This document shows positions 885 through 12,786 of a stretch of 32,217 nucleotides of DNA, piece by piece. Under the pieces are notes generated by a model. That model searched no databases. It was not told the DNA's origin and was given only the letters and a program-made list of their open reading frames with translations. How positions within the stretch are numbered: position 1 is the stretch's first letter; each line of letters starts with the position of its first letter. Location: the NCBI GenBank assembly GCA_913055825.1, contig CAJXKB010000035.1, positions 1-32,217 on the forward strand. The letters are read 5' to 3'. The stretch comes from an uncultured Bacteroidota bacterium. GTDB taxonomy: Bacteria; Bacteroidota; Bacteroidia; Bacteroidales; F082. Position numbers and translations under genes: made by a program.

Positions 885-892
885 TATATTTG
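885..892 (+). promoter_or_regulatory. candidate -7 element of the P-II/amt leader
   Basis: TATATTTG matches TAnnTTTG. The -33 region 20 bases upstream has no TTG, so only half of the consensus is present. If used, transcription would start near 899 and produce a leader of about 270 nucleotides before the P-II start codon, covering the upstream ORF and the attenuator hairpins. Confidence 0.4.
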
Positions 893-931
893 TATACAAC
901 AACGCAACATACTGCGGCAAGCGTTCAGATC

Positions 932-1081
932 ATGAAAAGTTATTCTACATATAAATTGGTTACAAAAGAATTTGATACCCGGAAAGCATCACACCATATT
1001 TCCGGGGCTTTTGCCATTTCATGTAAAATAAACATCAAACATTTCAGGACTACAAATAAGATGACCCAATGGCTTGAATGA
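932..1081 (+). CDS. possible 49-codon leader peptide upstream of the P-II gene
   Basis: An ATG at 932 opens a 49-residue frame that ends with TGA at 1079-1081, inside the predicted leader RNA. The peptide starts MKSYSTYKLV and ends TQWLE, with a Gln codon (CAA) at 1067-1069 and a Glu codon (GAA) just before the stop. It resembles no protein family I know. The reason to list it is position: the stop codon overlaps the 5' arm of a predicted antiterminator (1078-1089), as in ribosome-mediated attenuators. There is no Shine-Dalgarno sequence, which is normal here. A perfect hairpin (CCCGGAAA at 978-985, TTTCCGGG at 999-1006) lies within it. The frame could also be chance inside a structured leader. 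Confidence 0.35.
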   Translation: MKSYSTYKLVTKEFDTRKASHHISGAFAISCKINIKHFRTTNKMTQWLE

Positions 1082-1126
1082 GCCTTTTATGAATAAAACA
1101 GAAATTATTTTTATTAAAAGGCTTAT
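1078..1126 (+). promoter_or_regulatory. antiterminator helix in the P-II/amt leader
   Basis: Bases 1078-1089 are complementary to 1115-1126 over 12 pairs with one G-U wobble. The core AGCCTTTTA (1081-1089) pairs perfectly with TAAAAGGCT (1115-1123). The 3' arm of this helix is the 5' arm of the terminator at 1116-1149, so the two structures exclude each other. The upstream ORF stop codon (1079-1081) sits in the 5' arm. A ribosome on the stop codon would cover the arm and favour termination. A ribosome held a few codons earlier would leave most of the arm free and favour readthrough. The pairing is seen in the sequence; the mechanism is inferred. Confidence 0.5.
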
Positions 1127-1149
1127 GAAAAAATTCATAGGCCTTTTTT
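1116..1149 (+). terminator. intrinsic terminator in front of the P-II gene (attenuator)
   Basis: A 14-bp stem (1116-1129 with 1134-1147, one G-U wobble) with an AAAA loop runs directly into a T tract (1144-1149, TTTTTT, then GTTT). It lies 22 bases before the P-II ATG and has no intact gene upstream on the same strand to terminate. This makes it likely to be a conditional terminator controlling the P-II/amt transcript. Confidence 0.65.
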
Positions 1150-1171
1150 GTTTAATCAAATATTTTAACCC

Positions 1172-1531
1172 ATGAAGAAAATTGAAGCAATTGTCAGGAA
1201 GTCAAAATTTGAGGATGTTAAAAAGGCTTTGTATGAAGCCGGCATTGGGTGGTTTTCATACTGGGACATTACCGGTCTTGGAAAATCTACTGAAGAACAA
1301 GTGGTAAGAGGACAAATATTTGAGTCTCATTATATCCAACGCCACATGCTTTCTATTGTTGTTCGTGACAAGAATTTGGAGAAAACCGTAAATGCGATTA
1401 TGAAGGCAGCACGCACAGGTGAAATGGGTGACGGAAAAATCTTTGTAAGCGACGTTGAGGCCACCTATAGGATTCGCACCGGAGAAACCGGACCGGAGGC
1501 TCTATACCTCAAAGAAAATGGAGAAAATTAA
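1172..1531 (+). CDS. P-II family nitrogen regulatory protein (GlnK-like)
   Basis: A 119-residue trimeric signalling protein that, in this family, senses 2-oxoglutarate and ATP/ADP and blocks the Amt channel by inserting its T-loop arginine. The N-terminal strand MKKIEAIVRKSKFEDVKKAL, the C-terminal signature TGEMGDGKIFV (residues 82-92) and the final YRIRTGE are typical P-II. The T-loop (about 36-55) is unusual. It is one residue shorter than in E. coli GlnB, the position of the uridylylated Tyr51 is Phe50, and the position of Gln39, which helps bind Mg-ATP-2-oxoglutarate, is Ser39. The pore-plugging Arg is kept (R46). It lies directly before amt, so control of ammonium uptake is the likely role, but uridylylation is unlikely. 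It follows a candidate attenuator. Confidence 0.93.
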   Translation: MKKIEAIVRKSKFEDVKKALYEAGIGWFSYWDITGLGKSTEEQVVRGQIFESHYIQRHMLSIVVRDKNLEKTVNAIMKAARTGEMGDGKIFVSDVEATYRIRTGETGPEALYLKENGEN

Positions 1532-1645: not shown

Positions 1646-3043
1646 ATGAAGATGAAAAAAATAAGTATAACAATAATTATTCTTTTTACTTTGATGAGCT
1701 TACCGGTATTGGCACAAGGTACAACAGCAACAGTTGTTCCTGTTCCTGCAATTAACAGGGGCGATACAGCATGGATGATGGTGGCCACCGCACTGGTATT
1801 ATTAATGACCATCCCCGGATTGGCTCTTTTTTATGGTGGCTTGGTCCGGCGCAAGAATATTTTAAATGTGCTGATGCAAAGCTTCATGATTACAGCCGTT
1901 GTCAGTATCGAATGGGTAACTATCGGTTATAGCCTTTCATTTGGCAGCACAAACGGCGTATTGGCACCTTACATTGGCGGGTTTCATTGGGCTTTTCTGC
2001 ATGGGATTCACATTAGCGATTTAAGTCCTTATTTTATTTCTCATTCTCAACCTACCGGAAAAATAGTCAACGGTGTTCCTGTAATGATTGGAACCATTCC
2101 TCATATTGTCTTTATATTGTTTCAGATGATGTTTGCCATTATTACCCCTGCCCTGATTATCGGTGCTTTTGCCGAGCGTATTAAATTCAAAGGTTTTTTG
2201 ATTTTCTCATTGCTTTGGGCTTTGATTATTTACAATCCGGTTGCACATTGGGTATGGTCAGCTGATGGTTGGCTGGCAAAATTAGGAGCCCTTGACTTTG
2301 CAGGAGGGACAGTAGTGCATATCAATGCTGGTATTGCAGCGTTGGTAATGATTCTGATGTTGGGGAAACGTCGTGATTATCAAGGGCATGCAATTCCGCC
2401 ACATAACATTCCTTTTGTAGCTATTGGTGCAGCTCTCTTGTGGTTTGGATGGTTCGGATTCAATGCCGGTAGTGGATTAGCTGCCGATGGAATTGCAGGA
2501 AGCGCTTTCCTTATTACTCATATCGCTGCGGCTACTGCGGCTTTTACATGGGCCATTTTGGATTGGATCATCGGAAAGAAACCGACACTTGTAGGCGTCG
2601 CTACGGGTGCAGTAGCAGGGTTAGTTGCTATTACACCAGCCTCCGGATTTGTTGATGTAACGGGAGCATTAATTATTGGGATGATGGTTTCATTGGTTTG
2701 TTTCTTTATGGTAGCTTATGTGAAACCGAAAATGGGATATGATGACACATTAGATGCTTTTGGTGTTCATGGTGTTGGTGGTATCGTCGGCGCTCTTTTT
2801 ACCGGTTTACTTGCCACACCTGCTATTCAATCTGCATATAGTGGTGCTTTCTACGGGAATCCTCATCAATTTATCATTCAGTTAATCGCTGTTTTGTCAA
2901 CAATTGTCTATTCGGGCGTTGGCACCTTTGTCCTATTTTTAATAGTGGATAAGCTATTTGGTTTACGGGTAACTGAAAAGCAAGAAGCCATAGGAATGGA
3001 TGAGGCCATGCATGGAGAAACGGCTTATACAACATTTGATTGA
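1646..3043 (+). CDS. amt: ammonium transporter (Amt/MEP/Rh family)
   Basis: A 465-residue inner-membrane channel for NH4+/NH3, with an N-terminal signal-like segment (residues 1-24, ending VLAQ) and about 11 membrane helices. The conserved pore residues are present: D217 in GALDFAGG, and the twin histidines H225 (VVHINAG) and H375 (GVHGVGGI). Their separation of 150 residues equals that of H168 and H318 in E. coli AmtB. WFGWFGFNAGS (266-276) is also typical. The first ATG at 1646 is used; a second at 1652 is possible. The gene follows the P-II gene by 114 bases and is probably cotranscribed with it, the usual glnK-amt pairing. It would supply ammonium for the glutamate synthase encoded downstream. 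Confidence 0.96.
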   Translation: MKMKKISITIIILFTLMSLPVLAQGTTATVVPVPAINRGDTAWMMVATALVLLMTIPGLALFYGGLVRRKNILNVLMQSFMITAVVSIEWVTIGYSLSFGSTNGVLAPYIGGFHWAFLHGIHISDLSPYFISHSQPTGKIVNGVPVMIGTIPHIVFILFQMMFAIITPALIIGAFAERIKFKGFLIFSLLWALIIYNPVAHWVWSADGWLAKLGALDFAGGTVVHINAGIAALVMILMLGKRRDYQGHAIPPHNIPFVAIGAALLWFGWFGFNAGSGLAADGIAGSAFLITHIAAATAAFTWAILDWIIGKKPTLVGVATGAVAGLVAITPASGFVDVTGALIIGMMVSLVCFFMVAYVKPKMGYDDTLDAFGVHGVGGIVGALFTGLLATPAIQSAYSGAFYGNPHQFIIQLIAVLSTIVYSGVGTFVLFLIVDKLFGLRVTEKQEAIGMDEAMHGETAYTTFD

Positions 3044-3089
3044 TGAAAATACAACATTTCATAGAAAAACTCAAGTTTACAGCTAACCG

Positions 3090-3120
3090 TTGTTACCTAA
3101 AATAATAGGGTATAAACTTG
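3090..3120 (+). promoter_or_regulatory. candidate promoter of gltBD
   Basis: TTG at 3090-3092, then 20 bases, then TAAACTTG at 3113-3120, one mismatch from the Bacteroidota -7 consensus TAnnTTTG. The predicted start near 3127 gives a short leader of about 45 bases to the ATG at 3172. It also argues against the TTG at 3118 being the start codon, because that codon would lie inside the promoter. Confidence 0.5.
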
Positions 3121-3171
3121 CGAATTATACGATTAAAATTGACTTGTAAAACGGAAAAATATAATCCAAAA

Positions 3172-6100
3172 ATGATAAAAGGACAACTTTCGGTAAAAGG
3201 CTTGTATAGCCCCGATAATGAGCATGATAACTGTGGAATTGGATTTGTAACCCATATTAAAGGAAAAGCCTCTCATGATATCATTGAAAAAGGTTTTGAA
3301 GTATTGCGCAATCTGGATCATCGCGGGGCAAAAGGTGCGGATGATGCCAGTGGTGACGGGGCAGGTATTTTGATGCAGATTCCTCATGAATTTATCAGGG
3401 AAGTGTTGAATATCAGGGTTTCTGATAAAGAAGAATATGGCACCGGACTGATTTTTTTACCCAAGGCCGAAAAAGAAGCAGCTGAATGTCTGCGAATATT
3501 GTCGGATACCATTAAAGCAGAAGGCCTTACATTGCTTGCTTATCGCGATGTGCCGGTAAATTCTTCCGTTATCGGGGATATTGCCCGTACTACAGAACCA
3601 CAAATCAAACAGGTTTTTGTAAAAGCAGCGCTGGAGCAGGATGAGATGGAGCAGAAGCTCTATATTATACGGAAACAAAGCGAAAAAAAAGTCCGGGCAT
3701 CCGAAATTGCATTGAAGGATGATTTTTATATCGTGAGCCTGTCTTCACAGACGATTGTTTACAAAGGAATGTTTACGCCGGAACAGCTTCGTAATTATTA
3801 CCCCGATTTGCAGCATCCCCGGTTTAAATCGGCCATTGCATTGGTACATTCACGTTTCAGTACCAATACTTTTCCTACCTGGGCGTTGGCACAGCCTTTC
3901 CGGCTGATGGCGCACAATGGAGAAATCAACACCATTAAAGGGAACCGCATGTGGGCACACGCCCGTGAGGCTTTGCTTGAATCGGATATTTTCGGCGAAG
4001 ACCTGAAAAAGGTTTTACCTGTTTTGGAAGAAGGAAAATCAGATTCTGCTTCTTTTGACAATGTGCTGGAGTTTTTATACATGACCGGCCGTTCGTTAGA
4101 TCATGCCCTTTGTATGATGATTCCTGAATCGTTCAATGAAAAAAATCCCATTCCCGATAGTCTGAAAGCTTTTTATGAATATAATTCCACCATCATGGAA
4201 CCATGGGACGGGCCGGCAGCAATCGTTTTTTCCAACGGCCGATATGTTGGAGGAACGCTCGATCGCAACGGGTTGCGGCCTTCGCGGTATGTCATCACCA
4301 AAACCGGTTTAATCGTTATGGCTTCCGAAGTTGGGGTTCTGCCGTTTACACCGGATGAAATCATCGAAAAAGGGAGGCTACATCCGGGGAAAATTCTGTT
4401 GGTGGATACCCGGCTGGGAACAATTATCCCCGATAAGGAAGTCAAAGACCGGTTAAGCCACCGGAACCCTTATGCCCGTTGGTTAAAAGAGAATCGGTTG
4501 ATGATGAACGATATCATTGTTAAAAAACGGGTTCCGTCGTCCATAGATAATTTTCAGGAACTTGCCGGTGTTTTTGCTTACACGAAAGAAGAAACCGAGT
4601 GGCTCATAAAAACCATGGCAGAAACCGGAGTTGAGCCCATCAGCTCGATGGGTAACGATACGCCCCTCGCTGTCTTTTCAGAAAAACCCCAGCGTCTTTT
4701 CAACTATTTTAAACAGATTTTTGCCCAGGTAACCAATCCTGCCATTGACCCTATCCGCGAAAACCTGGTAATGTCCATGACCAACTATATTGGTTCACTG
4801 AATTCTAATATTTTATCAGAAACCCCGGACCATTGTAAACTGATCAAATTCAGGAATCCGATAATAACCAATACCGATCTTGGAAAAATAAAAGACATGA
4901 AAGATGAGATGTTTTCTCACCAGATTGTCCCGATGATTTTTCCTGTACAGGATGGCTTTGATGGTTTTCAGAAAGCGTTTCAACAAATGTTGCAGGCTGC
5001 CGAAGCGGCAGTGGATAACAAAAAAAACTTTATCATTTTGTCCGACAGGTTAGTTGACACCCAACATGCACCCTTTCCATCTTTACTTGCTGTGGCTGCC
5101 GTTCATCACCACCTAATCCAAAAGAAAAAAAGAATGCAGATAGGAATTTTGGTTGAAACCGGCGAAGCACGCGAAGTAAACCATTTTGCCCTGCTGCTGG
5201 GCTATGGCGCCAGTGTGGTGAATCCTTATCTTGCATTTGCCGCCATCGACTATTTGGTAAAAGAGAAAAAAACAGAACTTGAATACAAAATAGCGAGAAA
5301 AAATTACATCAAAGCCATCAATAAAGGGCTGCTGAAGATTTTCTCAAAAATGGGGATATCCACTATCCGTAGTTATCACGGTGCCCAAATTTTTGAAGCC
5401 ATTGGGATAAGCCGCGAACTCATCGACAAATATTTTACAGGAACTTCTACACCCATTAGCGGTATCGGGATGAAAGAAATTTTTGAAGAATACAGCCGGT
5501 TTCATCAGGAAGCTTTTCGACAACAAACAAGCCCGGATAAAAAATTTCTGTTTCATCATGAGGGAATTTATGCCTGGCGCAAAGATGGCGAAAACCATGC
5601 CTGGAATCCTGAGTCCATCAGTCTGTTTCAATGGGCAACAAAAACCGGCGACTATGCCAAATACAAGGAATACAGCGCCTTAATCAACAGGTATAACCGG
5701 AAACCGGCCTTTATCAGAGGCTGTTTGACATTGAAAAAACGAAATCCCATCCCTTTGGAGCAGGTAGAGCCGGTCGAAAACATCATGAAACGTTTTGTTA
5801 CCGGGGCCATGTCGTACGGTTCTATCAGTAAAAATGCGCACGAGGCCATTGCCATTGCCATGAATACCATTGGCGGTCGAAGCAACACCGGCGAAGGCGG
5901 AGAAGACCCGCAACGTTTTGACACACAAAAGCAAAGCGCCGTAAAACAAGTTGCTTCCGGGCGTTTTGGCGTGACCAATAATTATCTGACACATGCCAAC
6001 GAAATTCAGATAAAAATTGCTCAGGGGGCCAAGCCGGGTGAAGGAGGCCAGTTACCCGGATATAAAGTGAACAAAATTATTGCCAAAACCAGAAAATCAA

Positions 6101-7701
6101 CGCCGGGGATTACCTTAATTTCTCCGCCACCCCATCACGATATTTATTCCATCGAGGATTTGGCGCAACTTATTTATGATTTAAAAGTTACCAATCCAAA
6201 AGCCGGCATTTCCGTGAAACTTGTTTCTGAGAATGGTGTGGGAACCATTGCCGCCGGTGTAGCCAAAGCACATGCCGATCTGATTATTATTTCCGGTGGC
6301 GAAGGAGGTACCGGTGCCAGTCCTGTTAGTTCCATCAAGCACACCGGATTGCCGGTGGAACTGGGTATTGCCGAAGTACAGCAGACGTTGATGATGAATC
6401 GCCTTCGGGGACGCGTAAAGCTACAGGTTGACGGCCAGTTGAAAAATGCCAATGATGTGGTGAAACTGGCCTGCCTCGGTGCGGAAGAGTTCGGCTTTGC
6501 CACATCGGCGCTCATCGCCCTCGGTTGTGTAATGATGCGAAAATGCCACACAAACACCTGTCCGATGGGGATAGCCACGCAGGATAAGTCATTGCAAAAA
6601 CGGTTCAGGGGAAAGTCGGAATATGTAATTAATTTCTTTCGCTTTCTTGCCATGGAAGTGCGTGAGGAGCTGGCCGCTTTGGGATTCTCTAAATTTGATG
6701 ATATTGTCGGACGTACAGATTTACTGGAAATCGATCGCAGGGTTTTTAACCGGAAAATGGAAAATATGGATTTTTCCGCCTTGTTGACAAGGGTGGAAAC
6801 AGGAAAAAACACCGTCAGGCATAACGTTTTATCAGAAAATGGAAGCGTGCTGAAAAATCATTTGGATTTCCATTTGATAAAAGAAGCAGAAAAAGCTATT
6901 CGGGCTAAAGAAAAGGTGTGGTTATTCCATATTATTCGCAATATTGACCGTTCCACAGGGGCCATGTTGTCCGGCGAAATTTCCCGTCGATACGGCGACA
7001 AAGGGCTGCCTGATGATACCATAAACGCTGCATTTTCCGGCTCGGCAGGGCAGAGTTTTGGTGCCTTTCTCGCTAAAGGTGTTACCTTTCGTCTCGAAGG
7101 AGATGCCAACGATTTTGTGGGGAAGGGGCTTTCCGGCGGAAAAATTATTATTGTTCCCCCGCGCGGCTCGGTTTTCAAGCCCGAAGAAAATATTATTATC
7201 GGAAATTCAACCTTTTATGGTGCTACGGGAGGGGAAGCTTATATTCAGGGAGTTGCCGGCGAACGGTTTTGTGTCAGAAACTCGGGAAGCCGGGTGGTAG
7301 TTGAAGGGGTTGGTGACCATTGCTGCGAATATATGACCGGCGGCAGAGTAGTCGTTCTTGGTAAAACCGGTCGGAATTTTGCTGCCGGAATGAACGGTGG
7401 CATTGCTTACATTTTGGACGAATCGGGCGATTTCGATTATTTCTGTAATAAAGGGTTAGTTGATCTGGAAAAAATAGAAAACAAAGCCGATACGAATGAA
7501 TTACAAGGACTTATCAATAATCATTTACTTCATACCCAAAGCCGGCTTGCTGCCAGAATTTTAACAAACTGGGATGAATATCTTCCCAAATTTGTCAAGG
7601 TAATTCCTTTTGAATACAGAAAAGTTCTTGAAGAAAAAAAGTTAAAGGAGCTTGAACGTAAGCTGAAAATGACGGAAGATAACCTGCGTCGTTACGAGTA
7701 G
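3172..7701 (+). CDS. gltB: glutamate synthase (NADPH), large subunit
   Basis: The large subunit of GOGAT, which transfers the amide of glutamine to 2-oxoglutarate to make two glutamates. From the ATG at 3172 the protein has 1509 residues, normal for the family. A short propeptide precedes Cys21 (CGIGF), the expected catalytic N-terminal nucleophile of the class II amidotransferase domain (about 21-430). Then come the central domain (about 470-760), the FMN-binding synthase barrel (about 820-1190) with GGEGGTGASP, a 3Fe-4S site with C1119, C1125 and C1130 (CX5CX4C), and a C-terminal GXGXG beta-helix (about 1270-1470). The frame also runs upstream to a TTG at 3118, rejected because it overlaps the candidate promoter. 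gltD follows after 33 bases. Confidence 0.97.
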   Translation: MIKGQLSVKGLYSPDNEHDNCGIGFVTHIKGKASHDIIEKGFEVLRNLDHRGAKGADDASGDGAGILMQIPHEFIREVLNIRVSDKEEYGTGLIFLPKAEKEAAECLRILSDTIKAEGLTLLAYRDVPVNSSVIGDIARTTEPQIKQVFVKAALEQDEMEQKLYIIRKQSEKKVRASEIALKDDFYIVSLSSQTIVYKGMFTPEQLRNYYPDLQHPRFKSAIALVHSRFSTNTFPTWALAQPFRLMAHNGEINTIKGNRMWAHAREALLESDIFGEDLKKVLPVLEEGKSDSASFDNVLEFLYMTGRSLDHALCMMIPESFNEKNPIPDSLKAFYEYNSTIMEPWDGPAAIVFSNGRYVGGTLDRNGLRPSRYVITKTGLIVMASEVGVLPFTPDEIIEKGRLHPGKILLVDTRLGTIIPDKEVKDRLSHRNPYARWLKENRLMMNDIIVKKRVPSSIDNFQELAGVFAYTKEETEWLIKTMAETGVEPISSMGNDTPLAVFSEKPQRLFNYFKQIFAQVTNPAIDPIRENLVMSMTNYIGSLNSNILSETPDHCKLIKFRNPIITNTDLGKIKDMKDEMFSHQIVPMIFPVQDGFDGFQKAFQQMLQAAEAAVDNKKNFIILSDRLVDTQHAPFPSLLAVAAVHHHLIQKKKRMQIGILVETGEAREVNHFALLLGYGASVVNPYLAFAAIDYLVKEKKTELEYKIARKNYIKAINKGLLKIFSKMGISTIRSYHGAQIFEAIGISRELIDKYFTGTSTPISGIGMKEIFEEYSRFHQEAFRQQTSPDKKFLFHHEGIYAWRKDGENHAWNPESISLFQWATKTGDYAKYKEYSALINRYNRKPAFIRGCLTLKKRNPIPLEQVEPVENIMKRFVTGAMSYGSISKNAHEAIAIAMNTIGGRSNTGEGGEDPQRFDTQKQSAVKQVASGRFGVTNNYLTHANEIQIKIAQGAKPGEGGQLPGYKVNKIIAKTRKSTPGITLISPPPHHDIYSIEDLAQLIYDLKVTNPKAGISVKLVSENGVGTIAAGVAKAHADLIIISGGEGGTGASPVSSIKHTGLPVELGIAEVQQTLMMNRLRGRVKLQVDGQLKNANDVVKLACLGAEEFGFATSALIALGCVMMRKCHTNTCPMGIATQDKSLQKRFRGKSEYVINFFRFLAMEVREELAALGFSKFDDIVGRTDLLEIDRRVFNRKMENMDFSALLTRVETGKNTVRHNVLSENGSVLKNHLDFHLIKEAEKAIRAKEKVWLFHIIRNIDRSTGAMLSGEISRRYGDKGLPDDTINAAFSGSAGQSFGAFLAKGVTFRLEGDANDFVGKGLSGGKIIIVPPRGSVFKPEENIIIGNSTFYGATGGEAYIQGVAGERFCVRNSGSRVVVEGVGDHCCEYMTGGRVVVLGKTGRNFAAGMNGGIAYILDESGDFDYFCNKGLVDLEKIENKADTNELQGLINNHLLHTQSRLAARILTNWDEYLPKFVKVIPFEYRKVLEEKKLKELERKLKMTEDNLRRYE

Positions 7702-7734
7702 GACAAAAACAAAAATCAGAAAAATATTGACATT

Positions 7735-9156
7735 ATGGGTGATTTGAAAGGTTTCATAACTGTAAGCAGGAAAGAGGGCGGCTATCGGCCTGTGAATGAA
7801 AGAATTTATGATTTTGGTGAGGTGGAGCAAACGCTTGACTTTCAGGACAGAAAGCTGCAGGCTTCACGCTGTATGGATTGTGGCGTTCCGTTTTGTCATT
7901 GGGCTTGTCCTGTGGGGAACAAAATGCCCGAATGGCAGGATGCCCTTTATCGCGGTCGCCTTGAGGAAGCGTATGAAATTCTGCATGCTACCAATACTTT
8001 CCCGGAAATTACCGGCAGAATATGCCCGGCTCCTTGTGAAAAATCATGTGTGCTTGCTATTCACGAAGAAGCAGTTACCATCCGCGAAAACGAATGTGCC
8101 ACGGTTGAGATGGCTTTTAGCCATGGGATTATCAAGCCATGCCCTCCACAAAAAAGAACAGGTAAAACCGTTGCGGTTATTGGTTCCGGCCCTGCCGGAT
8201 TATCTGTCGCTGACAGGCTGAACCAGTTAGGCCATCTTGTAACGGTTTTTGAGAAAAATGATGCCATTGGCGGTTTGATGCGCTATGGTATTCCTGATTT
8301 TAAACTGAACAAAGCAGTCATTGACAGGCGGCTTTCTATCTTTGAAAAAGAAGGTATTATCTTTAAAACCAATGTTTTGGCAGGTAAAGATATTTCATCT
8401 GATGACTTATTGGAAAATTTTGATGCGGTTGTCCTGGCCATGGGGAGTGAACAACCACGTGATTTACAGGTTAACGGCCGTGAGTTGAAAGGGATTCATT
8501 TTGCCATGGATTTCCTGAAGCAAAGCAATTTGAAAGTAGTGGGAAAAGAAATTCCGGCAGGTGAAATGATAGATGCCGCAGGAAAAGATGTTCTGGTTAT
8601 AGGGGGAGGCGATACCGGTTCAGATTGCGTTGGAACGGCTATTCGCCAGCGTGCAGCTTCCGTAACTCAGATAGAGATTTTACCGAAGCCTCCTGTAAAA
8701 CGGGAGTTGAATAATCCGTGGCCCTATTGGCCCAATGTATTACGTACTTCAAGTTCACATGAGGAAGGATGTGCAAGGCGATGGAGTTTGTTAACAAAAA
8801 AGTTTTTGGGGCAAAACGGTCAGGTGAAACAGGCAGAGGTGATTAAAGTTGAATGGACCAAAAACGAACAGGGACAATGGACAATGACAGAAAAGGGGAA
8901 ACCGGAGCTGCTGAAAGTGGATTTGGTTCTGCTTGCCATGGGATTCACCCAACCGGTTCACCACGGCTTCCTTGACAGCCTCGGATTGGAATATGATAAG
9001 AGGGGAAATGTGAAAATAAATGAAACAAATCAAACGTCAGTAAACAAAGTTTTTGCCGCCGGAGATGTTGCCAAAGGTGCTTCACTGGTAGTAAAAGCCA
9101 TTGCTGAGGGTATTTCAACCGCTACTTTTGTGGATGCATTTCTTACCGGAAGTTAA
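7735..9156 (+). CDS. gltD: glutamate synthase (NADPH), small subunit
   Basis: A 473-residue FAD- and iron-sulfur-containing partner of GltB that passes electrons from NADPH to the large subunit. The N-terminal cysteine motifs for the 4Fe-4S clusters are intact (C46, C49, C54, C58 and C97, C101, C105). The FAD Rossmann fold is at VAVIGSGPAGL (146-156), the NADPH fold at VIGGGDTG (288-295), and the C-terminal FAD motif is AAGDVAKGASLVV. The gene begins 33 bases after gltB and is clearly in the same operon. The length is normal for the family. Confidence 0.97.
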   Translation: MGDLKGFITVSRKEGGYRPVNERIYDFGEVEQTLDFQDRKLQASRCMDCGVPFCHWACPVGNKMPEWQDALYRGRLEEAYEILHATNTFPEITGRICPAPCEKSCVLAIHEEAVTIRENECATVEMAFSHGIIKPCPPQKRTGKTVAVIGSGPAGLSVADRLNQLGHLVTVFEKNDAIGGLMRYGIPDFKLNKAVIDRRLSIFEKEGIIFKTNVLAGKDISSDDLLENFDAVVLAMGSEQPRDLQVNGRELKGIHFAMDFLKQSNLKVVGKEIPAGEMIDAAGKDVLVIGGGDTGSDCVGTAIRQRAASVTQIEILPKPPVKRELNNPWPYWPNVLRTSSSHEEGCARRWSLLTKKFLGQNGQVKQAEVIKVEWTKNEQGQWTMTEKGKPELLKVDLVLLAMGFTQPVHHGFLDSLGLEYDKRGNVKINETNQTSVNKVFAAGDVAKGASLVVKAIAEGISTATFVDAFLTGS

Positions 9157-11106: not shown

Positions 11107-12786
11107 CTACTTTTTCTTTTTCCAGCTGTCGCGCAAAGGAACAGTGCGGTTGAACACCATATGATCGGGTTGACTGTCGTTGTCGACACAGAAATAGCCC
11201 AGGCGCTGAAACTGAAACTTATCACCGGGTTTTACACCTTTCAACGAAGGTTCCAGCTTACAGTGTTTCAATATCTTTAACGAATCGGGATTGATAAATT
11301 CCTTAAAATCTTTGTCTTTATGACCTGCGGGGTCTTCATCGGTAAAAAGCCGGTCGTACAAACGCACTTCTGCATCTATTGCATGTTCAGCCGAAACCCA
11401 GTGTAACGTTCCTTTTACTTTTCGCTGTGCATTGCCCCCGCTTTTGGTTTCAGGATCGTAAGTACAATATATTTCTGTTATCTTTCCGTTTTCATCTTTT
11501 TTATAATCCATACATTTCACAATGTAAGCCCCTTTCAGGCGGACTTCACGCCCGGGGCCGAGACGGAAGAACTTTTTAGGCGGCTCTTCCATAAAATCAT
11601 TGCGTTCAATATAAACTTCCCGGGTAAAAGGAATCATACGGCTGCCACCTTCGGGATCTTCCGGATTATTAATTAATTCCAGTTCTTCCACTTTGTTTTT
11701 GGGATAATTGGTTATTATCAACTTCACCGGATCAAGTACACCAAACACCCGTGGGGCAATCTGGTTGAGATGCTCGCGTACACTGTATTCCAGTAAACCT
11801 ACATCAATCACGTTATCGCGTTTGGCAATGCCGATACGGTCAGCAAAATTACGGATAGACTCAGGGGTGTAACCTCTGCGCCTTAACCCCGATATGGTGG
11901 GCATGCGGGGGTCGTCCCATCCGGTAACCATGTTTTTCTCAACCAATTCAAGTAATTTCCGTTTGCTCATTACCGTATAACTCAGGTTCAGACGGGCAAA
12001 CTCAATCTGACGCGGGCGATAATCACCATCTGCTATTTGATTGAGATACCAGTCGTACAGTGGGCGATGAATTTCAAATTCAAGTGTACAAAGCGAATGG
12101 GTAATTCCTTCGATATAATCGGATTGCCCGTGGGCAAAATCATAAATAGGGTAAATATTCCATTTATTTCCGGTGCGGTGATGTTCGGCATGCAACACCC
12201 TGTACATGATAGGATCACGCATGTGCATATTGGGCGAGCTCATGTCCACTTTGGCGCGCAACACCATTGAACCGTCAGCCACTTCACCGTTTTTCATTTT
12301 TTCAAATAAAGCCAGATTTTCTTCTATGGGACGGTTACGGTGCGGACTTTCAATTCCGGGGCGTGTAGGTACCCCCCGCTGTTGGCTGATTTCTTCCTGA
12401 GGCTGTTCGTCCACATAAGCTTTTCCGTCTTGAATCAATTTAATGGCCCATTTATATAACTGGTCAAAATAATCGGAAGCGTAATGCGGCTCATCCACCC
12501 ACTGAAAACCCAGCCACTTAATGTCTTCTTTGATGGCATCCACATATTCAACATCTTCTTTGGCGGGATTGGTATCGTCGAAACGCAAATTACATTTACC
12601 ATGATATTTTTCGGCCAGGCCAAAGTTTAAGCAGATCGACTTGGCATGGCCAATGTGCAGATAACCATTGGGTTCGGGGGGAAACCTGAAATGAACCCGT
12701 CCCTCATTTTTATTGTTTTTAAGGTCTTCTTCTATAATGCTCTCAATAAAATTGAGCGACCTGCTGCTGTTTTCAACCGCTTCCAT
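11107..12786 (-). CDS. glnS: glutaminyl-tRNA synthetase
   Basis: A 559-residue class I synthetase that charges tRNA-Gln with glutamine. The Rossmann-fold signatures are present: [15 protein letters not shown] with HIGH at 44-47, and VMSKR (272-276) as the KMSKS loop. The GlnRS-specific anticodon-binding beta-barrels fill the C-terminal half, with [20 protein letters not shown] typical of the family. The length matches E. coli GlnS. The ATG at 12786 lies about 32 bases after a strong promoter match on this strand. Having GlnRS implies direct charging of tRNA-Gln rather than the GatCAB route. The gene is convergent with the manA operon and divergent from the dsbD-type gene. Confidence 0.97.

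Follow-up and report, generated by a model that had tools for sequence, protein, structure and literature searches.

A candidate leader-peptide attenuator before the P-II and ammonium transporter genes of a Bacteroidales genus, with glutamine codons in several of its members

We have studied the leader that precedes the gene for a P-II nitrogen regulator in a stretch of 32,217 nucleotides, termed the window, from an uncultured Bacteroidota bacterium. Comparison and folding of the nucleotide sequence suggest that this leader (885-1171) is probably a ribosome-mediated transcription attenuator of the P-II-amt operon, sensing Gln-tRNA(Gln). The evidence comprises the anatomy of the leader, its recurrence in seven genomes, runs of glutamine codons in four of the seven leaders, a coupled change of antiterminator and terminator arm in two, and further leaders before trpE and ilvD.

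On this reading RNA polymerase would start near position 900, and a ribosome would translate the leader peptide. When Gln-tRNA(Gln) is plentiful the ribosome would reach the stop codon and cover the antiterminator arm, so that the terminator would form and transcription would end near 1150. When glutamine is scarce the ribosome would wait on the Gln codons before the stop, for which the single such codon of the window would have to suffice. The antiterminator arm would then be free to pair with the 5′ arm of the terminator, and P-II and Amt, perhaps with GltBD in this genome, would be made. If this is correct, translation of a Gln-rich peptide links the charging of Gln-tRNA straight to ammonium uptake, glutamine joins the amino acids that are sensed by attenuation, and the Bacteroidota gain a concrete circuit of nitrogen control.

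Anatomy of the leader

The features of the leader and of the genes below it are collected in Table 1. A preliminary description of this DNA had placed a terminator with a T tract just before the P-II ATG. The sequence and a pattern scan return the same terminator, correct to the base: 14 pairs and a loop of 4, followed by T's, with 24 nt from the end of the stem and about 22 nt from the T run to the ATG. The exclusive 12-bp antiterminator that it had proposed was confirmed by direct reading as an unbroken helix of 12 pairs that includes one G-U, and is present in the minimum free energy (MFE) structure of the RNA lacking the 3′ arm of the terminator. Its placing of the Gln codon, and of the stop of the leader ORF (TGA, 1079-1081) within the antiterminator arm, is likewise borne out. 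Terminator and antiterminator are mutually exclusive, because nucleotides 1116-1126 are common to both. Comparison of alternative folds, as had been advised, gave the terminator on folding 900-1152 and the antiterminator on folding 900-1135, where the 3′ arm has not yet been made.

Table 1. Coordinates of the leader and of the genes downstream of it in the window
Feature	Position	Strand	Remarks
−7 promoter box, Bacteroidota type	885..892	+	TATATTTG
Leader ORF, 49 codons	932..1081	+	MKSYSTYKLVTKEFDTRKASHHISGAFAISCKINIKHFRTTNKMTQWLE, then stop
Sole Gln codon of the leader, CAA	1067..1069	+	3 codons before the stop
Possible protecting hairpin, GGCTT-GAAT-GAGCC	1071..1084	+	would hide the antiterminator arm
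Antiterminator, 5′ strand	1078..1089	+	overlaps the leader stop codon
Antiterminator, 3′ strand	1115..1126	+	shared with the 5′ arm of the terminator
Intrinsic terminator	1116..1149	+	stem 1116-1129/1134-1147, T run 1144-1149
P-II nitrogen regulator (glnB/glnK type)	1172..1531	+	PF00543 above cut-off
Ammonium transporter Amt	1646..3043	+	TIGR00836 above cut-off
gltB, glutamate synthase large subunit	3172..7701	+	NF008730 above cut-off
gltD, glutamate synthase small subunit	7735..9153	+	TIGR01317 above cut-off

The fold of 900-1152 has z = −2.8, with none of 200 shuffles as stable, a value in which the terminator itself is included. The best complement to the terminator arm has p = 0.015 (1000 shuffles), and an ORF of 49 codons or more that starts with ATG and stops next to the arm has p = 0.013 (2000 shuffles). 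Taken singly these statistics of the window are modest, and the case is made by its relatives.

The promoter box conforms to TAnnTTTG, which we take to be the consensus of the Bacteroidota −7 box; no −33 box was seen upstream of it at the proper spacing. The leader ORF has no NCBIfam or Pfam match. The earlier statement that no gene lies upstream to be terminated stands within the searches made: no gene matched by a protein family was found there on the plus strand, and the nearest upstream ORF matched by Pfam (255-626) is on the minus strand. The window gave no match to Rfam 15 at gathering scores, and hence none to a glutamine riboswitch or T-box.

Recurrence within the genus

P-II of the window type is encoded in 7 of 12 genomes of the genus, that of the window included (E ≤ 1e-30), and the same 7 alone carry it among 173 genomes of the family (E ≤ 1e-22). 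Copies of four contigs from another collection (L032, L033, L036 and L038) were counted once only. All seven loci have a TAnnTTTG box upstream, by which alone the promoter was judged, and a terminator that ends 22-26 nt short of the P-II start codon, i.e., between the box and the first gene. An ATG ORF of 32-98 codons ends at the stop beside the antiterminator arm in six of the seven, with its start 14-39 nt past the box. The exception is L003, where the frame at the arm stop has no start and a 37-codon ATG ORF, containing no Gln, ends 13 nt later. Each of the six ORFs is longer than those usually obtained in dinucleotide shuffles (Table 2).

Table 2. The seven leaders of the genus
Leader	Arm stop relative to P-II ATG (nt)	ORF (codons)	p, ORF length	Gln in last 30 codons	p, Gln enrichment	Codons from last QQQ to stop	p, complement of terminator arm	Peptide end (before stop)
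Window	−93	49	0.013	1	0.64		0.015	MTQWLE
L010	−85	98	0.0015	11	1.6e-9	13	0.27	ANNQQQSQQQSQQQNQQNFNWNSNRKK
L036	−83	63	0.002	8	4.5e-6	4	0.011	LFNQQQQNQQQNRLH
L033	−88	64	0.0035	7	4.6e-5	5	0.001	NQMMNQQQNQIRT
L007	−92	32	0.02	5	0.003	17	0.13	MSKQHFCTGCFKQQQNRCCSAKLSGRKQPPDE (peptide)
L006	−91	34	0.017	3	0.08		0.12	AIKQKHNYTG
L003	−93			0	1		0/1000	

Glutamine codons in the leader peptides

A run of three glutamine codons (QQQ) is present in four of the seven leader ORFs, most clearly in the one that ends in NNQQQSQQQSQQQNQQNFNWNSNRKK before its stop. Against a background of 3.3% Gln (9042 residues of the window), the last 30 codons are strongly enriched in Gln in these four and marginally in L006; the p-values are not independent since the seven genomes are related. 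In L010 and L007 the QQQ run does not adjoin the stop, which speaks against the glutamine reading; L007 also carries another Gln, 4 codons from its stop. The preliminary description had proposed that attenuation is coupled to glutamine. The Gln-rich leaders of the relatives argue for this more strongly than does the single Gln codon of the window, whose own leader shows no enrichment (p = 0.64).

The attenuator in the species of the window might sense the general rate of translation or another amino acid, for example through the Trp and Leu codons that follow the Gln, rather than glutamine. A single Gln in 49 codons and the lack of a Gln-containing ORF in L003 would fit such a sensor. However, the one Gln of the window stands at a place from which a stalled ribosome would leave the arm unpaired, and the QQQ runs of the relatives end at 4 and 5 codons before the stop in L036 and L033, and at 13 and 17 in L010 and L007. 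We therefore consider sensing of something other than glutamine to be rather improbable. Specificity for glutamine is well supported in part of the genus and less so for the window, where homology and the location of the one Gln codon are its grounds; the window leader has retained the layout of the others but is the weak case, though its Gln is well placed.

Antiterminator pairing and the position of the ribosome

When the best complement of the 5′ arm of the terminator was sought within 70 nt upstream, it was found to start between −7 and +4 nt from the leader stop in all seven loci. The complement is significant singly in the window, L036, L033 and L003, and not in L010, L007 or L006 (1000 shuffles each; Table 2). 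In a cross table of regions and arms, region 2 of L033 and of L036 gives −14.3 and −14.8 kcal/mol with its own arm, and about −6 kcal/mol with that of the window. Region 2 of the window gives only −6.4 kcal/mol with the arm of L033, yet −11.6 kcal/mol with that of L036, and L010 and L006 pair better with the arms of some other genomes than with their own. The antiterminator has thus changed together with the terminator arm in two genomes, in a table that is not clean throughout.

Covariation in the helices had been put forward as a check, and for the antiterminator it is seen as the coupled change in these two genomes. In the terminator helix, 93.9% paired across the leaders, 2 pairs have both partners changed; the covariation does not rise above that of shuffles (65/500) and is consequently not used as proof.

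The effect of a ribosome was calculated with a simple model, in which its 3′ edge was assumed to lie 10 nt after the A-site codon. In the window, a ribosome at the Gln codon is predicted to leave an antiterminator of −11.5 kcal/mol, and one at the stop codon −0.3 kcal/mol. L010, L036, L033 and L007 switch in the model as the window does, and L006 less cleanly; with the ribosome at the stop some pairing of the arm is left in L006, in L003 and, weakly, in the window. The antiterminator is also predicted when no ribosome is present (−14.1 kcal/mol in the window), and therefore the off state needs either a ribosome or a protecting hairpin. The hairpin at 1071-1084 could possibly serve, although no conserved counterpart was recognised in the folds of the relatives. 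The anatomy of the leader is real, and ribosome-mediated attenuation, as first proposed, is the best-supported reading of it.

In L003, L006 and L007 the sequence that separates the antiterminator arms, GCCTATAATGTGATCAGTTTATTATA, just past the leader stop, is almost unchanged. This conservation perhaps exceeds what a loop would need.

Genes below the leader and nitrogen physiology

The P-II protein of the window is also matched by two NCBIfam equivalog models, both below cut-off. Directly 3′ of amt (3044-9153) lie gltB and gltD, which would belong to the same operon. They were not found downstream of amt in the stretches fetched for the six relatives, two of which, at less than 1.4 kb, say little. 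Glutaminyl-tRNA synthetase is encoded at 11110-12786, and Gln-tRNA can thus be made directly from glutamine.

Glutamine is a central nitrogen signal. As a rule it is sensed by riboswitches or by GlnD, the protein through which it usually acts on P-II. No full GlnD reaches the cut-off in the 12 genomes of the genus; short partial matches occur in 10, of which the best scores 32.8 bits where the cut-off is 519.4. Among 14 control genomes 5 have a match, 2 of them above cut-off. A ribosome-based glutamine sensor would fill the place of GlnD, and since several relatives have a Gln-rich leader peptide, the ribosome itself may report low glutamine.

In the sister genome G006, of the same genus, identity to the proteins of the window is 61% for P-II and 34% for Amt, and its P-II is 77% identical to that of a locus (L121) from another family of the order. 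Its leader, the most Gln-rich, aligns with that of the window, and a stretch of 22 bases reaching into the terminator arm is identical in the two. The case leans on this alignment and on the shared bases because percent identities of the attenuator disregard gap columns and are as high as 60-80% even where the ORF regions of those pairs are compared. The likelier event would seem to be an exchange of the P-II-Amt pair, not a move of the leader; retention of a control element over a differing pair is hard to explain without function. The wider proposition, that glutamine is sensed by the ribosome on behalf of P-II and Amt, in a lineage in which no full GlnD was found, the leader staying with its promoter while the P-II-Amt pair was exchanged, is one that we hold to be evenly balanced.

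Distribution of the element

Upstream regions of other P-II genes, from the Bacteroidota and beyond, were also inspected; 40 of the best order-level matches without a locus were fetched, and phylum matches were limited to those given as loci. Among 154 distinct non-members, a terminator-like site lies within 110 nt in 5, with scores of 15, 9, 6, 6 and 5 versus 16-19 in the members, and QQQ occurs in some frame in one (L052). The 27 P-II loci of the phylum (2 of them repeats) have weak sites in 5 (scores 6-9) and no QQQ. The preliminary description had looked to Bacteroidota at large for conservation of the leader. The terminator, the position of the antiterminator and the ORF stop do recur in the genus (L003 lacking the ATG ORF), but not across the phylum, and on this sample the element belongs to one genus.

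The only non-member site of similar strength, in L065 (Flavobacteriaceae, score 15), is a strong hairpin before P-II, but it follows an upstream reading frame and has no Gln run, and was rejected as a member. Two similar hairpins stand there in tandem before P-II (2880-2970), beginning ACCCTAAAAT and ACCCCTAAAAT.

The hairpin might instead be an ordinary terminator or a chance structure, with P-II transcribed from a promoter beyond 1150 and a spurious ORF before it. This would have to place a promoter in the short interval between the T run and the ATG, and to account for a position and geometry that recur in seven of seven loci and are nearly absent from the 154 other upstream regions, as well as for the lack of an upstream plus-strand gene with a family match. 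We regard it as scarcely credible.

A covariance model (R1) was built from the seven leaders and run over the 173 family genomes. The seven score 87-95 bits, a match by construction, and all else 45.3 bits or less. Matches at E ≤ 0.1 occur in 71 of the 173, those inspected being mostly ordinary terminators or gene ends. A match in the genome of the window itself, L203, was set aside as an ordinary gene end. Positions 1-39 of the window are near-identical to a stretch of L203, GTCTGACG.GGAGCCGGTGCGTGGCGACTCGTG, which on its contig (C70) follows a terminator; this suggests a repeat or a mobile-element end.

Relation to known systems

Ribosome-mediated attenuation of the trp, his and ilv type uses leader peptides. 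The P-II leader resembles these systems in its leader ORF with a stop beside the antiterminator arm, its exclusive terminator and antiterminator and its control codons matching the pathway. It differs in that the codons are for Gln (in the relatives), that the peptides have 32-98 codons, and that it would control a nitrogen regulator with an ammonium transporter, not a biosynthetic operon. The glutamine riboswitches, i.e., the glnA and Downstream-peptide RNAs, bind glutamine directly; they too link glutamine to nitrogen genes through a 5′ leader, but they have no Rfam match here.

A known class of glutamine riboswitch is mentioned in the part consulted of PMC8632094. The same part describes the uORFC-8-2 motif upstream of cysS, with a predicted uORF, tandem control codons and a terminator, which differs in having cysteine codons and in belonging to Rhodobacterales; the gltD motif described there was set aside, as its place is immediately before gltD, in Selenomonadales and Veillonellales. 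Within the Bacteroidota, leader-peptide attenuation has been suggested upstream of amino-acid operons of Flavobacterium psychrophilum (PMC9723704), and short ORFs reminiscent of leader peptides have been noted in Bacteroides thetaiotaomicron (PMC7366714); the parts consulted of these two papers mention no glutamine leader, P-II or ammonium transporter. The preliminary description knew of no attenuator at this locus in Bacteroidota. Our literature search, with subscription papers mostly outside its scope, likewise met neither a glutamine leader peptide nor an attenuator at P-II or amt, which does not prove their absence.

Other leader-peptide candidates

Weaker matches of R1 include WWW leaders before trpE in G001, G005 and G006 (MNKMNLN.NWWWLFF) and leaders rich in Ile, Val and Leu before ilvD in G003 and G011 (MKRVFGRIYVIITILVLVGHTP, then stop), the gene names being read from the protein starts rather than from a family search. 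Leader-peptide candidates were recognised in 3 of 23 second-tier R1 loci (L196, L199 and L200 being viewed off-centre) and in 5 of 14 stretches of the genus, two of the latter repeating the former. The genome of the window has both kinds. On contig C65 (L257) a trpE leader, MNQMKQNTNWWWLFFRPELT, and on contig C28 (L298) a GTG-started leader before ilvD, VKNILRFIVVSFVILIGNSL, are each followed after the stop by a terminator-like hairpin. The stop of this ilvD leader is followed by GGAGAG, complementary by eye to CTCTCC in the terminator arm. In a duplex test region 2 lies at +2 nt from the stop in both ilvD leaders given and at −9 nt in the trpE leader of the same genome; the arm-beside-stop geometry was absent from three other trpE leaders and from a Met/Cys leader.

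These leaders share with that of P-II the order of promoter, short ORF, terminator and gene, but carry WWW or Ile/Val/Leu codons, and the arm beside the stop is clear for ilvD and not for most of trpE. Judged from their sequences, the trpE and ilvD leaders are candidate further attenuators in the genome of the window. If so, leader-peptide attenuation would form a working repertoire (trp, ilv, gln) within one genome.

Such matching-codon leaders bear on a further explanation, in which a protein or small molecule works the terminator-antiterminator switch and the CAA-rich stretches are no more than unstructured spacer RNA. CAA repeats do lack structure, and the near-identity of the stretch between the arms in L003, L006 and L007 (attenuator identity 87-97%) would suit such a switch. 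Against this, the window has no Rfam match at gathering scores, an ATG frame reaches the arm in six of seven leaders with lengths beyond chance, and the trpE and ilvD leaders of the same genome have codons that match their genes. A switch of this kind is thus very unlikely, and we retain ribosome-mediated attenuation.

Two further groups of nitrogen genes were considered and rejected. Upstream of the second amt copies (8 loci, L165-L172, read by eye) a porin-like frame ends shortly before amt in 7; L171 is at a contig end and was not properly read. Glutamine synthetase genes of the genus have a terminator-like site within 120 nt in only 3 of 19 loci: L146 (score 14, at 46 nt), L141 (score 11, at 83 nt) and L157 (score 5). 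The start was taken as the first ATG, which is doubtful for L143 and L157.

At L146 (G007), before a type I glutamine synthetase, a possible GTG mini-ORF with two Gln (VQQKRF, then stop) stands just before the hairpin. It is the only one of the 19 loci with a possible Gln mini-ORF, and is a possible second glutamine attenuator. At L182 (G072), another of the weaker R1 matches, a terminator and a leader containing codons for Met and Cys, MRKETINMRNMMCAEVCAKGIFV before its stop, precede a gene read by eye as that of a putative enzyme of Cys/Met metabolism.
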